Assembly (NCBI RefSeq): GCF_000021545.1
Contig: NC_012438.1
Span: 248,001-312,000 of the forward strand
DNA: 64,000 nucleotides
Direction of reading: 5' to 3'
Source of the DNA: Sulfurihydrogenibium azorense Az-Fu1
GTDB taxonomy: Bacteria > Aquificota > Aquificia > Aquificales > Hydrogenothermaceae
The notes below the pieces were generated by a model, which worked only from the letters and a program-made list of their open reading frames with translations, ran no database searches and had not been told where the DNA came from. The position numbers and the translations under genes are program-made. Shown in pieces: positions 32,049 through 48,672 of this stretch (the stretch's first letter is position 1; each line of letters opens with the position of its first letter).

Positions 32049-34493
32049 ATGTTTGAGAAATTTACAGAAAAAGCAAGAAAAGTAATACTAACAGCAAGGG
32101 AGCATGCATTATCATATAGAAACAACTACCTTGGAAGTGAGCATCTTCTCTTAGCACTCCTTGATGAAGATGATATTACAATCTTAGTTCTTTCCAAGTT
32201 TGGGCTTACAGTTGATAAAGTAAAGAAAACTTTAACTTCTCAAATGTCAAGAGGTAGCCATTCGGGAGAGGTTTTGTTTGCTCCTGATGCAAAAAGAATC
32301 CTTGAGTTTGCAGTAGAAGAGGCTCGTATTTTACACCATCCATTTGTAGGGCCAGAACATTTACTTATAGGTATAATCAGAGAAAAAACAGGTTTAGGTG
32401 GAAGAGTACTTAGAGGGTTTGGTATAGATGAGTATAGTGTAAGAAGAGAGATACTTTCTGCCCTTGGAGAGATACCTTCACAAGAACAAACAAAATCAGC
32501 TCCAACACCAAATTTAGACAGATTTGGAAGAGACCTAACAGCTTTAGCAAAAGAAGGAAAGTTAGACCCTGTTGTAGGTAGAGAAAAAGAAATAGAAAGA
32601 GTTATCCAGATACTCTCAAGAAGAAGAAAAAACAATCCAGTCTTAATAGGAGAGCCAGGGGTAGGTAAAACTGCTATCGTTGAAGGTCTTGCCCAAAGAA
32701 TAGCAAACAAACAAGTCCCTGAAACACTTCAAAACAAGAGAATAGTTGCACTGGATTTAGCTTTAATCGTTGCAGGAACAAAGTACAGAGGACAGTTTGA
32801 AGAAAGGTTAAAAAGCATCCTAAAAGAGTTAGAAAAAGCTCCTAACGTTATACTCTTTATAGATGAACTTCATACAATGGTTGGAGCAGGTTCTGCAGAA
32901 GGGTCATTAGACGCTTCTAATATGTTAAAACCTGCTTTATCAAGAGGAGAGATACAGGTAATAGGAGCTACCACTTTAGATGAATACAGAAAATACATAG
33001 AAAAAGACGGAGCTCTTGAAAGAAGATTTCAACCAGTTATAGTTGACCCACCATCTCCAGAAAATGCAATACTGATACTGGAAGGTTTAAAGAAAAAGTT
33101 TGAAGAGTTCCATAACGTAGAGTATACAAAAGATGCAATAGAAAAGGCAGTAGAGTTTTCTGTTAAGTACATATCAGATAGACAACTACCTGATAAAGCC
33201 ATAGACCTTTTAGATGAAGCAGGAGCTCTAGTCAGACTTAGAGAGCTTGAACTCCCAGAAGACCTTAAAAAGATAGAAGAAAAGATAAAAGAGATAGAAG
33301 AAGAAAAAACTAAAGCAATTAGGGAAGAAGACTTTGAAAAAGCGTCTAAGTTAAGAGACGAAGAGGTTAAGTTAAGAGCTAAGTTTGAAACTATGAAGTT
33401 AAACTGGAAAGAACAGCAAAAAGAAAACAGACCTAAAGTTACAGAAAAAGATATTGCAGAAGTTGTAGCAAGATGGACTGGAATACCTATAGCAAGATTA
33501 ACAGAGTCTAACAAAGAAAAACTTCTTCACATAGAAGAAGAACTTCACAAGAGAGTTGTTGACCAAAACGAAGCTATAACTGCAATTGCAAAAGCTATAA
33601 GAAGAAACAGCGTAGGACTAAAAGGAAGACACAGACCTATAGGAGTATTCTTATTCTTAGGACCTACCGGAGTAGGTAAAACTGAGACAGCTAAGGCTTT
33701 AGCAGAGTACTTATTTGGGAAAGAAGATGCTTTAATAAGGTTTGATATGTCTGAATATATGGAAAAACATACAGTATCAAGACTTATAGGAGCTCCTCCG
33801 GGGTACGTAGGTTACGAAGAAGGCGGACAGCTTACAGAAGCTGTAAGAAGAAAACCTTACTCTGTTATACTTTTTGATGAGATAGAGAAAGCCCACCCAG
33901 ACGTGTTTAATATATTCTTACAGATATTTGACGATGGAAGACTTACAGACTCTTTAGGTAGAGTAGTTGACTTTAGCAACACAATAATAATAATGACGTC
34001 AAACCTTGGTGCTAAGATGATTTTAGATAGTGGAAAGATGGGATTTGAAACAAAATCTTCTCTTGTAGATTACAAGGACCTTAAGAAAAATGTTATGGAC
34101 CAAGTTAAGAAAGCGTTTAATCCAGAGTTTGTTAACAGGCTTGATGAGATAATTGTATTCAAACCATTGGACAAAGAGGTGATTAAAGGTATAATAGATA
34201 TACAAATTAAAGAGATTAATAAAAGGTTAAAAGAATGGCAAATAGAAGTAAGCTTATCTCCAGAGTTTGTAAACTACTTGATAGAGAAAGAATTCAAACC
34301 AGAGTATGGAGCAAGAAGTATAAAGAGAGCTCTTCAATCTCAAGTAGAGGACTTGTTAGCAGAGGAGATACTATCTGGAAAATTACAACCTGGTTCACAA
34401 GTGGAAGTAGTATTAAATCCAGACAACACAGTAGGATTAAAAGTTCTACAAAAGAAAAAAGGAAGGAAAAAGAAAGAACTTCAACCAGCATAA
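32049..34493 (+). CDS. clpC: ClpC-type AAA+ unfoldase
   Basis: An 814-residue class I Clp ATPase. It has an N-terminal double Clp_N domain (about 1-145), a first AAA module (GEPGVGKTA), a UVR-like middle segment ([18 protein letters not shown]) that marks ClpC rather than ClpA/ClpB, and a second AAA module ([10 protein letters not shown]). It unfolds substrates for ClpP. The stop TAA at 34491-34493 overlaps the proposed bamA start codon, and a terminator-like hairpin follows at once. Confidence 0.95.
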
Positions 34494-36892
34494 AAAGGTT
34501 TGCGGTCGTTTCTACGACCGCTTTTTTTATACTTTCTTTTAACTCTTTTGCAGAAGAAAATAAACATTCTAATCAAGTAGAATCAGAAGATATAACTCTA
34601 GATAAACCCAAAATTCAAACCGGGACAATCCAAGGAGAATTTTCTAAAGTGTATAGAATAGAAAAAATAGAGATAAAGGGTCTAAAATTCTTCAATGAAG
34701 AGATAATAAAACCTCTTATACCTTTTGGAAAAGGAGCTATCGTAAGTAGGGATAAAATAGAAAACACTTTAAGAGACCTTTATAAACTTGGATACTTCTC
34801 AAACGTAGAAGCTTACACTAAATATACAGAAAATGGAATAGATATTACTTTTGTATTTACAGAGCTTCCTGTTGTTCAAAGGATTGAGTTTGAAGGCAAC
34901 AAAGCCATCTCAAAAGATGACCTTATAAAAGAGTTAGGCTTAGACTTGTCTGAAAAGTTAGAATCAGGAAAACCTCTACCTTTTACAACGTTAGGACCAG
35001 AGCTTACCTCTAAACTTTCTTCAATAAAAAAAGGTCTTGGAAGAGTTTTATCTACAGATGAAATAGGACAGATGGTAAAAAGACTCCAATCCCTCTATGA
35101 AAAAAGAGGATACTATAACACGAAGATTTCTTACTACTATAAAGGAAATACATTAGTCTTTAAGATAGAAGAAGGAACTAAAGCTTACGTTGAAAAAATT
35201 GAGATAGTAGGAAACAAAAATATAAAAACTAAAGAAATACTTTCTGTGATGGAAACATCAGAAAGAAGTATATTAAAGTTAAAACTTCATCCAAGTCTAG
35301 TGAAAGAAACACTGTACGAGGACATTGATAAAATAAGAAATCTGTATGTAGGAAAAGGATTTTTTGATGTAGATATTCAAGAACCAGAAGTTAAACTAAT
35401 AGACGGTAAAAAATACCATATAACTATTAAGATAAATGAAGGTGATAGGTATAAAGTTGAATCTATAAAGCTGGAAAACAACGACCTGTACACAAATAAA
35501 GAGCTTCTTGAAGTAACTAAAAGAAAAGCTATAAAACCGGGAGAGTACTACGATCAAGAAAAGATAGACTTTATAAAGAAAAATATTTTAGACAAGTACA
35601 ACGACCTTGGATACATATTTGCTAATGTTGAAGTAAACAAACTTGTAAACAAAGAAAAGAAAACTGTAGATGTTGTATTCAATATAAACAAAGGTAATAT
35701 ATTCTACGTAGATAAAATAAAAATAGAGGGAAACTACGAGTCTAGAGACTCTACTATAAGAAGGGAGTTAAAACTTGCACCGGGAGACCTATTTAAGAAG
35801 GAAAACCTTTTAAGATCTCAAGCAAGGCTTTATAGACTTGGATACTACGATATGGTAGGTTTTGACCCCAACGTAAAATCAGATAACGAGATGGATCTTA
35901 CAACTCAGGTAAGTGAGAGATTTACAGGTCAGATGTCTATAGGTGCAGGATACAGCCAGCAAACAGGACTTTCTTTCTTTGCATCTATAAAGAAAGGAAA
36001 CTTTTTAGGAACAGGGGACACAGCAGGTATATCTCTATCAATAGGTTCAAAGTACAGAAACAACTCATTAAACTACCTTCACAGATGGTTTTTATACAAA
36101 CCTTTAGACCTTGGATTAAACCTTTACGACACTTACATTAACTACACATCTTTTGTTGCTACAAAGACTGGTTTTTCTCCAACTGTATCATACGAGTTTA
36201 AAGAATACTGGAGAACAGGTTTAACCTTAACTGCAGAAAAAGGTGAGTATAAAGATATCTTAGATACAGCATCTATCTACATTAAGAAACAAGCAGGTAA
36301 ATACGATCTTTATTCAGCTGGATGGTTTATAAACAGAAACACTATAGACAACCCTATACTCCCTACAAGTGGTAGTGATCTAACCTTAACGTTAAAAGCA
36401 GGTACTGGTACAAGAGATTTTTATAAAGTGGTTTTATCAGGGACTAAGTTAATTCCAGACAGAATTTTTTATACTAACTTTATATTCTCTGTAAAAGGTA
36501 CTTTTGGATTGGTTGAAAAAATATCTAAAAGTATACCGTTAGACGAGCTATTCTTTGTAGGTGGTGATTTTACAATTAGAGGTTTTGACTGGGGTAGAGC
36601 AGGGCCACTAGATGAAAATAAAGACCCTGCAGGAGCAAAAAGAGAGATAGTCTTAAACTATCAACTTGCCCATCCAATTGTAGAGAGATTTTTGTGGGGA
36701 TTTGTATTTTTAGATCAAGGTAAAGGTTTTGATAAAGGTAATCCATTCTCAAACTTGTATAACTCTGTGGGAGCTGGACTTAAAATTATTACACCTTTTG
36801 CACCGATTGAACTTTACTACGGTAAGGTACTAAACCCACCTTCTGGAGTAAGTGACTCAAGATTTGGATTTATACTAGGAACGTTCTTCTAA
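34490..36892 (+). CDS. bamA: Outer-membrane beta-barrel assembly protein BamA, probable AUA start
   Basis: About 800 residues. A signal peptide ([20 protein letters not shown], cleavage before EEN) is followed by five POTRA repeats (to about residue 460) and a C-terminal beta-barrel ending in FILGTFF, with the terminal aromatic residue. The only ATG in frame upstream is 34235, deep inside clpC, which would put 85 basic residues before the signal peptide. No GTG or TTG lies between. ATA at 34490 gives a normal signal peptide and overlaps the clpC stop as ATAA. It inserts outer-membrane proteins; skp and lpxD follow. Confidence 0.85.
34502..34528 (+). terminator. Terminator-like hairpin inside the bamA signal-peptide codons
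   Basis: GCGGTCG (34502-34508) and CGACCGC (34515-34521) form a 7-bp G+C-rich stem with a 6-base loop, followed by seven T. It looks like a rho-independent terminator 8 bases after the clpC stop, yet the same bases encode the bamA signal peptide. It may attenuate read-through from clpC, or be relieved by ribosomes entering bamA. Confidence 0.7.
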
Positions 36893-36914
36893 AATAAAAT
36901 TGAGAGGTAAAGAG

Positions 36915-37415
36915 ATGAAAAAGATTTTATCAGTTTTACTGATGATTTTTGTGATTAGTGGAGTATCAAAAGCGGCAAACTTGGCTTACGTTGATATGGA
37001 AAAGGTTATGAATGAGTCAGAAAAAGGTAAAAAGTATAAAAAAGAGTTAGAAAGTAAGCTAAATTACTATCAAAACAAAGCAAAAGAGTTACAAGCTAAA
37101 ATTCAAGACATTCAAAAACAGCTCCAAAGCCCAGCCCTTAAAGACAATGCAAAAGAAGAAAAAAGAAAAGAGTTAAGAGATTTAGCAAGACAACTCCAAT
37201 CCTTAGAAGTTCAAGCTAGCGAAGAACTTGCAAAAATGAAAGCAGAAGCTGAAAAAAATATGGTTATGGAAATAAAGAAAATTGCAGAAAAGATAGCTAA
37301 AGAGAGAAACCTTGACGCTGTGTTTTACGGCGGACTTGTAAGTGGTGTACTCTATGCAAGTCCTAAACTTGATATTACAAACGATGTTCTAAAGGAGTAC
37401 AACAAACAAAAATGA
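36915..37415 (+). CDS. skp: Skp/OmpH-family periplasmic chaperone
   Basis: A 166-residue protein with a signal peptide (cleavage near [10 protein letters not shown]) and a long charged coiled coil (about 45-130), the Skp tentacle fold. Skp carries unfolded outer-membrane proteins to BamA, encoded just upstream. The ATG at 36915 follows GAGAGG; an earlier TTG in frame would lie on that site. Confidence 0.9.
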
Positions 37416-46850: not shown

Positions 46851-47335
46851 TACTCTCCTCTATAGGTTGCCTTTCCTGTTGCTGTTTCCCAAAGAGTTAC
46901 ACTTACAACCTTTATATCTTCTTCTAAGCCAGCTTCTTTTAACTTTTGAACTAAAAAGTCGTAAAAGTACTTAGCCAGAGCTTCCGCCGTTGGACAAAAA
47001 TCAACTTCTGTAATCTTATAACAACCAAAAAGCTCTTTAAATTTTGGATATATAGGATCGTTTACGTCTATTATAAATGAGTGGTCAAAAACGTTATCTA
47101 CTAAATCCTTTAACGCAGATTTTATATGGTAAAAATCTACTACTACATCTTGCTCGTTTAAAGTGTCAGACCCTACAGTTACTTCCAGAACATAGCTGTG
47201 TCCGTGAAGGTTTACGCACTTGTTTTCAATTACAACACCTTCAGATAACTTTGCAGTTTTTCCTGACCTTAAATCTTGCTTCCATACTCTATGTCCTGCT
47301 TCAAACCTAAATATTTTAGTTATCTCATACTTCAT
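46850..47335 (-). CDS. queD: 6-carboxytetrahydropterin synthase / 6-pyruvoyl tetrahydropterin synthase family
   Basis: A 161-residue tetrahydropterin-fold enzyme. Zinc ligands are H15 (FEAGH), H44 and H46 (NLHGH), and the catalytic Cys is C40 in the C-x3-H-x-H pattern of QueD. It would make 6-carboxytetrahydropterin for queuosine. The pattern favours QueD over PTPS, but no other queuosine gene is in the window. Confidence 0.88.
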   Translation of the reverse strand: MKYEITKIFRFEAGHRVWKQDLRSGKTAKLSEGVVIENKCVNLHGHSYVLEVTVGSDTLNEQDVVVDFYHIKSALKDLVDNVFDHSFIIDVNDPIYPKFKELFGCYKITEVDFCPTAEALAKYFYDFLVQKLKEAGLEEDIKVVSVTLWETATGKATYRGE

Positions 47336-47906
47336 CTGCTTTCCTCCTACTATCTAAATACGCTTTCAGTATAGCTGCTGCTTTTGGATCTTCTTTGGCT
47401 TTTTCTGTAAGATTCATTATAATTTCTGATTCATCTTTTTCAGCTAATTTTTCAATCTCTTCGTTAAATTCTTTTATCTCTTGGTTTGTGTCTTTTTTAT
47501 ACTTATAAAGTATATAAAGTATATACATAAACACTATAAAAATGCTGAATATTACAAACTGTATTATATTTTGAAGTAGTAATGCTTTGTTTGTATAGTT
47601 GTAGAGCTTTTCTAATTTATTATCAAGAGTTCGTTGATTTTGTTTAATCTCTTCTATATCTGACATTAGTAGTTGTAAAATTTCTTTATCCTTTTGGGAA
47701 AGACCTTTTATATTTTCTATCTGGGATAATTTTTCTTCAAGACTTTTCTGTTTTTGATATAAACGTTGTACTTGATCTTCAACTTTTTTCAGTTGCTCCT
47801 CTTTTACACCTTTATACTCTATCACTTTAGGTTCAACTATCATCTGTTCTGAAAATCCTTGAGTAGTAAAGATTAATAAAACAATCAAAAACTTAAAGTA
47901 TTTCAA
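47325..47906 (-). CDS. Exported coiled-coil protein with one membrane span
   Basis: About 193 residues. A TTG start at 47906 gives a normal signal peptide (KYFKFLIVLLIFTTQGFS); an ATG at 47936 would add ten residues and a 44-base overlap with pyrK. The mature protein has a coiled coil (about 35-115), a membrane helix (NIIQFVIFSIFIVFMYILYI) and a cytoplasmic acidic tail. Function unknown. Confidence 0.68.
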   Translation of the reverse strand: MKYFKFLIVLLIFTTQGFSEQMIVEPKVIEYKGVKEEQLKKVEDQVQRLYQKQKSLEEKLSQIENIKGLSQKDKEILQLLMSDIEEIKQNQRTLDNKLEKLYNYTNKALLLQNIIQFVIFSIFIVFMYILYILYKYKKDTNQEIKEFNEEIEKLAEKDESEIIMNLTEKAKEDPKAAAILKAYLDSRRKADEV

Positions 47907-48672
47907 TCTCTTTTGCCTCAAAAACGGGTCCTTCATAACAAACTCTTACATAATTATCTTTGCTTTTATCTTTTACAACACATCCTACACATATTCCAAT
48001 ACCACAAGCCATTCTGCTTTCTAACGATAGATAACAAGGTCTGTTTTTACTTACAGCTATCTTACTTACAGCTTTCATCATTCCCTTAGGACCACAAACC
48101 AAAAGAGGTGCTTCAGGGTTATCTTCTATTATTTTCTCTAAATCCTGAGTAACTAACCCTTTTTTACCAAAACTTCCATCATCGGTATAGTAGATAACTT
48201 CTACTTGATTTTCTTCTATCCACTCTATCATAGATAAATCTTCTTTCTTTCTCGCTCCATACAGAGCAGTGTATTTTTTACCTTTTCTCTTAATCTCTTT
48301 TATAAAAAGACTTAATCCTGCAAAACCTATACCACCACCTACTATAATGTAGTTATCGTATTCTTCTGGAAAAAGGTTATTTCCCAGTGGTCCAAGAACT
48401 TTTAAATACTCTCCTTTATTCCTTGTTGTTAAGTAAGAAGTACCTTTTCCATAAACATCATAAAACAAAGTGATTGTATCGTCCTCTATATCGGCAATTG
48501 CAAATGCTCTCCTAAGTAAAGGATCATAGTAATCTTCTAATGTTGGTTTTACCATTACAAACTGTCCTGATTTTGTGTTTTTTGCTATTTCTGGAGCTTG
48601 TAGTTTAAGAATGTAAGTTTTTCCACTTATATACCTGTTTTCTAAAATTTTACAGTCTAAATCGTAAATCAC
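47893..48672 (-). CDS. pyrK: Dihydroorotate dehydrogenase electron-transfer subunit
   Basis: A 259-residue ferredoxin-reductase-like protein. An FAD domain (YDPLLRRAFAI), NAD domain (IIVGGGIGFAGLSLF) and a C-terminal 2Fe-2S site with Cys residues in MACGIGICVGC are present. With PyrD type B it passes electrons from dihydroorotate to NAD. pyrD is not in the window. Confidence 0.92.
   Translation of the reverse strand: MIYDLDCKILENRYISGKTYILKLQAPEIAKNTKSGQFVMVKPTLEDYYDPLLRRAFAIADIEDDTITLFYDVYGKGTSYLTTRNKGEYLKVLGPLGNNLFPEEYDNYIIVGGGIGFAGLSLFIKEIKRKGKKYTALYGARKKEDLSMIEWIEENQVEVIYYTDDGSFGKKGLVTQDLEKIIEDNPEAPLLVCGPKGMMKAVSKIAVSKNRPCYLSLESRMACGIGICVGCVVKDKSKDNYVRVCYEGPVFEAKEIEIL

Follow-up and report, generated by a model that had tools for sequence, protein, structure and literature searches.

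A probable long clpC/bamA overlap in Hydrogenothermaceae with conserved start signals inside clpC and a terminator-like hairpin in the bamA signal-peptide codons

The window analysed here is a 64,000-nucleotide stretch of the genome of the hot-spring bacterium Sulfurihydrogenibium azorense Az-Fu1, a single contig of 1,640,877 bases, and all positions refer to that window. Within it, clpC is followed on the same strand by bamA, an essential gene for outer-membrane assembly, and one stretch of DNA at their junction appears to be read as two proteins. The bamA start is very probably the ATG at 34235, inside clpC and out of its frame, and not a rare codon, whereas the preliminary description had placed it at an AUA overlapping the clpC stop. 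The resulting overlap covers 259 nt (34235..34493, plus strand), with bamA in the -1 frame of clpC. Judged by comparison of relatives, two marks of a true long co-directional overlap are present: a second frame held open by selection, and start signals of its own that are conserved at the same place.

The clpC gene (32049..34493, plus strand) is an open reading frame (ORF) encoding an 814-residue Clp/Hsp100 AAA+ ATPase with Clp_N, AAA, AAA_2, UVR and ClpB_D2-small (707-787) domains, and it shares its last 85 codons with bamA. The name ClpC follows from the domain make-up and from an earlier reader, because no NCBIfam equivalog reached its cut-off, the best being ClpB at 996 versus 1232 bits. 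The likeliest translated form of bamA is an ORF of 885 codons from the ATG (34235..36892, plus strand), and its product passes the curated cut-off of TIGR03303 with 499.4 bits versus 297.15.

An open second frame across the end of clpC

The junction was compared among genomes assigned to families labelled f1 to f5. Family f1, which includes the window, is taken as Hydrogenothermaceae from its named relatives (Sulfurihydrogenibium, Persephonella, Hydrogenothermus, and other Hydrogenothermaceae or Aquificota). A bamA match at E <= 1e-100 was found in 39 of the 41 f1 genomes searched, and 37 gave a readable clpC-bamA junction, the exclusions being three genomes in which a contig is cut inside bamA (G003, G006, G051) and one with no match (G079). 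Thirty-five of these junctions, from ten genera, are intact; two genomes, G075 (L039/L079/L095) and G084 (L068/L104), were left out of the counts because of insertions or deletions in clpC or bamA. With the seven f3 genomes, all intact and from one genus, the sample comes to 42, and in every one of them bamA lies in the -1 frame of clpC. For family f2 the upstream stretch was taken from 16 genomes, six of which have clpC there; these six show no overlap, the bamA start lying 10-17 codons past the clpC stop. In f5, clpC was not found in the stretch upstream of bamA in any of the six genomes taken, and the piece fetched from L075, the one f4 genome tried, yielded no match to BamA.

Stop codons in the bamA frame were compared with synonymous shuffles that preserve the residues and codon usage of each gene. 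Across the last 82-105 clpC codons the 35 f1 genomes hold no bamA-frame stop, against 250.2 +/- 11.3 expected. The count is likewise zero with one genome for each of the ten f1 genera (72.7 +/- 6.3 expected), in the seven f3 genomes (33.0 +/- 4.8 expected), and in an earlier, smaller test of 29 f1 genomes (201.0 +/- 10.0 expected). As controls, these codons read in the +1 frame have 396 versus 312.8 expected in f1 and 57 versus 51.7 in f3; a stretch of the same length just upstream of the ATG, read in the bamA frame, has 437 versus 364.4 in f1 and 37 versus 33.9 in f3; and in the six non-overlapping f2 genomes the last 84 clpC codons, read in the -1 frame, have 26 versus 31.9.

A different reading is that the codon preference of clpC happens to leave the frame open and that the long ORF has been mispredicted; a survey, in the part available, blames errors, many of them mispredicted starts, for the long co-directional overlaps that it examined (PMC2478687). 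Such an artefact is extremely unlikely in the present case, as a shuffle that already preserves residues and codon usage expects about 250 stops where none is seen, and the +1 frame and the upstream stretch exceed their expected stops in f1 while the non-overlapping relatives come roughly to theirs.

The two genomes set aside each deserve a remark. In the Persephonella metagenome-assembled genome G075 (L095, 2480-2960), an insertion or deletion near ClpC residue 760 leaves clpC and bamA in a single open frame of ~1600 codons, either a real fusion or an assembly fault. The metagenome-assembled genome G084 (L104/L068), 55% complete, has several frame changes in clpC and bamA, perhaps sequencing errors.

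Start signals inside clpC

The ATG at 34235 is the farthest in-frame start of bamA. It is formed by the codon pair GAA-TGG, at the same ClpC tryptophan codon, in all 42 intact genomes, and falls in one alignment column in 35/35 f1; GAA makes up a mean of 67% of glutamate codons over the 42 genomes. Eight nucleotides ahead of the ATG lies a Shine-Dalgarno-like AAAAGG (34221..34226, plus strand), the AAGG of which is invariant in all 35 f1 genomes. The arginine codon at this site is AGG in each of them, though AGG accounts for a mean of only 26% of arginine codons over the 42 genomes. The corresponding motif in f3 is AAGGG or AAGGT (7/7).

When 128 invariant, degenerate residues in the C-terminal part of ClpC were scanned without guidance, only six proved to be written with one codon in all 35 f1 genomes. 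Four of these are the GGT and ATA of GGTATAAT, the AGG of the Shine-Dalgarno motif and the GAA of the start. The other two, a TTT (in TTTGA) and an AGA (in AGAA) at clpC codons -64 and -129 from the start tryptophan codon, are unexplained. Furthermore, the longest invariant nucleotide runs in the aligned 3' part of clpC among the f1 genomes are GGTATAAT (8 nt) and GAATGG (6 nt).

The first of these runs, at 34188-34195, forms the end of a putative bamA promoter within clpC (34168..34195, plus strand), TGGACA-16 nt-TATAAT, which has 11 of 12 matches. Among the 41 promoter-like sites of a 13-kb scan it ranks first, though that number is itself no excess over the chance expectation of 39.0 +/- 6.9. 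In all 35 f1 genomes the TATAAT within GGTATAAT ends 39 nt ahead of the ATG. In f1, bamA seems to be served by a promoter of its own within clpC. In f3 the Shine-Dalgarno motif and the start are present, but TATAAT is not at the f1 place. By eye, a TAAAAT is seen in all seven f3 loci (L058-L062, L069, L070), ~42 nt ahead of the bamA ATG; it lies three bases 5' of where f1 has TATAAT and may be a weaker promoter. The six f2 genomes with clpC upstream (L045, L052, L056, L057, L063, L078) all carry TATAAT 8-10 nt before the bamA start, an arrangement that suggests a leaderless bamA mRNA; a private bamA promoter is therefore not peculiar to f1.

At the other end of the overlap, clpC finishes with GCA TAA, and the bamA frame from 34490 reads ATA AAA AGG TTT GCG. 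The preliminary description was correct that an ATA in the bamA frame overlaps the clpC TAA, as sequence and ORF reading agree, and that no ATG, GTG or TTG intervenes between 34235 and the signal peptide; indeed the ATG at 34235 is the sole in-frame start upstream of the matched part of BamA. Its further proposal, that AUA at 34490 is the bamA start (an ATAA overlap, with termination-reinitiation at the clpC stop), is not supported. A signal peptide does follow this codon directly. The alignment with related genomes that it had called for finds ATA in three congeneric species (L003, L005, L006) and ATGA in a fourth (L004); by genome, the genus has ATA in G000, G005, G002 and G004, and ATG in G001. 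More awkward for a start at 34235, 27/35 f1 genomes (0/7 in f3) have ATA either over the clpC stop or as the next codon, against a background of 6% of f1 codons, and an ATG stands right at the clpC stop in L004 and L066. However, the codon lying exactly over the clpC stop is poorly conserved: among the 35 f1 genomes it is ATA in 20, a leucine codon in 13 and ATG in 2, and in f3 it is TTA in 7/7. ATA arises when an A closes the final clpC codon ahead of TAA. Nor is there a ribosome-binding motif at normal distance, the nearest GGAAGG (34461-34466; by eye, in the window only) lying 23 nt before the ATA. In 11/35 f1 and 4/7 f3 genomes, moreover, lysine and arginine are both missing from the residues that lead from the clpC-stop codon to the hydrophobic core, and an AUA start would leave the stop-free frame upstream, with its Shine-Dalgarno-like motif and ATG, without explanation. 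ATA 34490 is thus probably not the start codon, and reinitiation at it is quite improbable. A sequencing error that turned ATG into ATA, which had also been suggested, is unlikely in view of the three other species that share the codon. Among the f1 genomes with a leucine codon over the stop, ATA is the next codon in 7/13 (L017, L023, L026, L030, L038, L041, L065), a pattern for which only AT-richness and, in some genomes, tandem clpC stops offer an explanation.

The bamA frame could also be entered from clpC itself, by -1 ribosomal frameshifting near the clpC end that would yield a ClpC-BamA fusion with an internal signal peptide. The constant -1 phase of bamA, the A-rich runs near the clpC end and the hairpin downstream would suit such a mechanism. 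However, five of the 35 f1 genomes (L023, L026, L035, L036, L043) have a bamA-frame TGA immediately ahead of the ATG, and the frame must therefore be entered at or after the ATG. A conserved slippery heptamer is absent, the A-run being broken, by eye, in L028 and L033; the hairpin is located after the clpC stop; and frameshifting has no need of the Shine-Dalgarno motif and ATG. We consider it very improbable.

A hairpin in the signal-peptide codons and its possible role

The signal peptide of BamA, 21 residues at 34490..34552 (plus strand; limits by eye from the translation), begins at the codon earlier taken as the start, and its codons contain a terminator-like hairpin, GCGGTCGT-TTCT-ACGACCGC at 34502-34521, followed by seven T at 34522-34528 (plus strand). 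The preliminary description had seen this element; its T-tract and stem are real and the structure is conserved, and the stem is computed at 8 pairs versus the 7 that it claimed. A 63-nt stretch folds at -18 kcal/mol (z -5.3), and none of 200 shuffles folds as well. A scan of 13 kb gave 11 terminator-like sites versus 7.4 +/- 2.7 expected.

A stem is found in 34/35 f1 genomes. Its start lies 8-31 nt past the first base of the clpC stop, and its arms differ in sequence between genera (compared by eye): GCGGTCGT/ACGACCGC, AGGGGGA/TCCCCCT, AGGAGGA/TCCTCCT, AGAGGGC/GCCCTCT and AAGCCAGC/GCTGGCTT. Against a synonymous recoding null, 29/35 f1 genomes fold better at P<0.05, with a mean folding-energy z of -3.4, and 28 of the 34 with a stem have at least five T among the next eight bases. 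In f3 the mean z is -0.04; this family has the overlap without a consistent hairpin, and the two therefore arose or were lost separately. The comparison thus supports a hairpin conserved as structure inside the signal-peptide codons of f1. With a GC-rich stem, a short loop and a U-tract, it has the structural features of a rho-independent terminator and is most likely the putative terminator of clpC.

Ahead of the signal peptide, a start at 34235 gives BamA an extension of ~85 residues. Conservation of this extension at the level of the peptide was sought and not found: the ratio of observed identity to the null is 1.13 in its first third (z 3.0) and 1.02 and 1.05 in the rest, within the 0.95-1.18 of control stretches. 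In f1 the mean net charge of the 15 residues that precede the codon over the clpC stop is +3.5, and in f3 it is +2.6. The signal-peptide core and cleavage site were seen by eye only. What appears to be kept in the extension is its openness, the start signals and a basic stretch ahead of the hydrophobic core; the residues themselves would be tolerated, or needed as translated distance, and removed along with the signal peptide.

These elements can be joined in a tentative model, in which two transcription units overlap, clpC ending at the hairpin and bamA being transcribed from its own promoter inside clpC. Ribosomes that initiate at the ATG at 34235, 85 codons before the clpC stop and in the -1 frame of clpC, would start ~260 nt ahead of the hairpin, translate through it and keep it open, so that bamA transcripts would pass. 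Ribosomes translating clpC, on the other hand, would drop off at the UAA, a few nucleotides before the hairpin, and in crossing the bamA start site in the other frame should depress initiation there; for both reasons termination would be favoured on clpC transcripts. The extension and signal peptide (~106 residues) would presumably be cut off together by signal peptidase. The terminator may then sort the two overlapping transcripts by reading frame, and the start of an essential gene may be kept inside its neighbour partly for that purpose, at a cost of ~85 disposable residues, a suggestion that we rate at somewhat under even chances. The comparison supports the start, the frame, the -10 box and the hairpin; promoter activity, termination, read-through by translation and the fate of the extension are inferences. 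In trp-type attenuation, passage of RNA polymerase depends on translation of a leader. The proposed model is alike in that polymerase passage would depend on translation, but here the translated frame would be that of the gene itself, and the hairpin the terminator of its neighbour.

Several observations weigh against the start at 34235 or against this model. The stem of the window (L002) is borderline against the synonymous null (P 0.050, z -2.1), and it is one of six f1 genomes that fail to beat that null at P<0.05; no stem was found in L040; and fewer than five T follow within eight bases in six of the 34 genomes with a stem (L004, L005, L017, L018, L019, L067). One f3 genome of seven (L069, P 0.040) does fall below P<0.05. 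In f3, the overlap occurs although TATAAT is missing from the f1 place and most of the genomes lack the hairpin, so passage of a terminator cannot explain the overlap in that family. A signal peptide behind ~85 residues is unusual, and the residues of the extension are, as described above, no better conserved than controls. Insertions or deletions interrupt two of the 37 readable f1 junctions (G075, G084), which nonetheless carry, by eye, GGTATAAT, AGG and GAATGG. Finally, although the counterpart of the ATG at 34235 is the sole ATG, GTG or TTG ahead of the matched part of BamA in 21/35 f1 genomes, a point in its favour, further such codons lie in frame before that part in 14/35 f1 and 7/7 f3 genomes, and a second, shorter BamA product may therefore arise from a later start.

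The conserved -10 box and hairpin might alternatively delimit a small RNA of ~325 nt from the 3' end of clpC, running from the promoter (34168-34195) to the terminator (34502-34528), with bamA expressed in some other way. RNAs internal to ORFs are described in Escherichia coli in the available part of one study (PMC7815308). We regard this as improbable as the sole explanation, given that stop avoidance, Shine-Dalgarno motif and ATG are signs of translation, present also in f3 genomes that lack the TATAAT and, mostly, the hairpin. An RNA of ~325 nt could still be a terminated product alongside bamA translation.

Two observations concern other genes of the window. The small gene after bamA (36900-37415) is listed as an ORF from a TTG. 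It more probably starts at an ATG five codons later, which opens the sequence MKKILSVLL ahead of a signal-peptide-like stretch. Elsewhere, the minus strand has an ORF at 47325-47936 that shares 44 nt (47893-47936) with another at 47893-48672.

Relation to known overlaps and terminators

A survey of 338 genomes, as far as its available part goes, recognised no real co-directional overlap of >60 bp, the longest real case being holD-rimI in Enterobacteria at up to 56 bp, and proposed a rule that flags such starts as errors by comparing lengths with orthologs (PMC2478687). By our reading, that rule would flag or discard the clpC/bamA overlap. Accessible parts of other studies describe selection against overlaps of >60 bp (PMC3887535) and find long overlaps in the phase of clpC/bamA several-fold rarer than those in the other phase (PMC10666635). 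A report of the clpC/bamA overlap was not found in the open-access literature by a search only partly aimed directly at the locus, and the portion seen of one further paper mentions neither clpC nor Omp85 (PMC4227106).

The clpC/bamA overlap resembles the short co-directional overlaps (ATGA, TGATG) that serve termination-reinitiation in its strand and in the phase of the common 4-nt class, as the latter is described in the part available (PMC10666635). It differs in its length, 259 nt versus 4, and in a start that lies far upstream with a Shine-Dalgarno motif of its own, although L004 and L066 could have a second start at the stop. With holD-rimI, judging from the same part of the survey cited above, it shares a conserved co-directional overlap (PMC2478687), and it is ~4.6 times longer and occurs in two families. 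The hairpin likewise has counterparts among the intrinsic terminators and ORF-internal RNA 3' ends mapped by Term-seq in E. coli, which, in what is available of that work, also combine a GC stem and a U-tract inside a coding region (PMC7815308). The putative terminator in bamA differs in its place, among the signal-peptide codons of an essential gene, and in its recurrence there with stems of differing sequence.

The two widespread genes clpC and bamA very probably form a 259-nt overlap in the phase of the common 4-nt overlaps, found in ten genera of one family and in one genus of a second. The locus would offer a testable case of a terminator that needs to be translated through, and of a signal peptide that acts far from the N-terminus.

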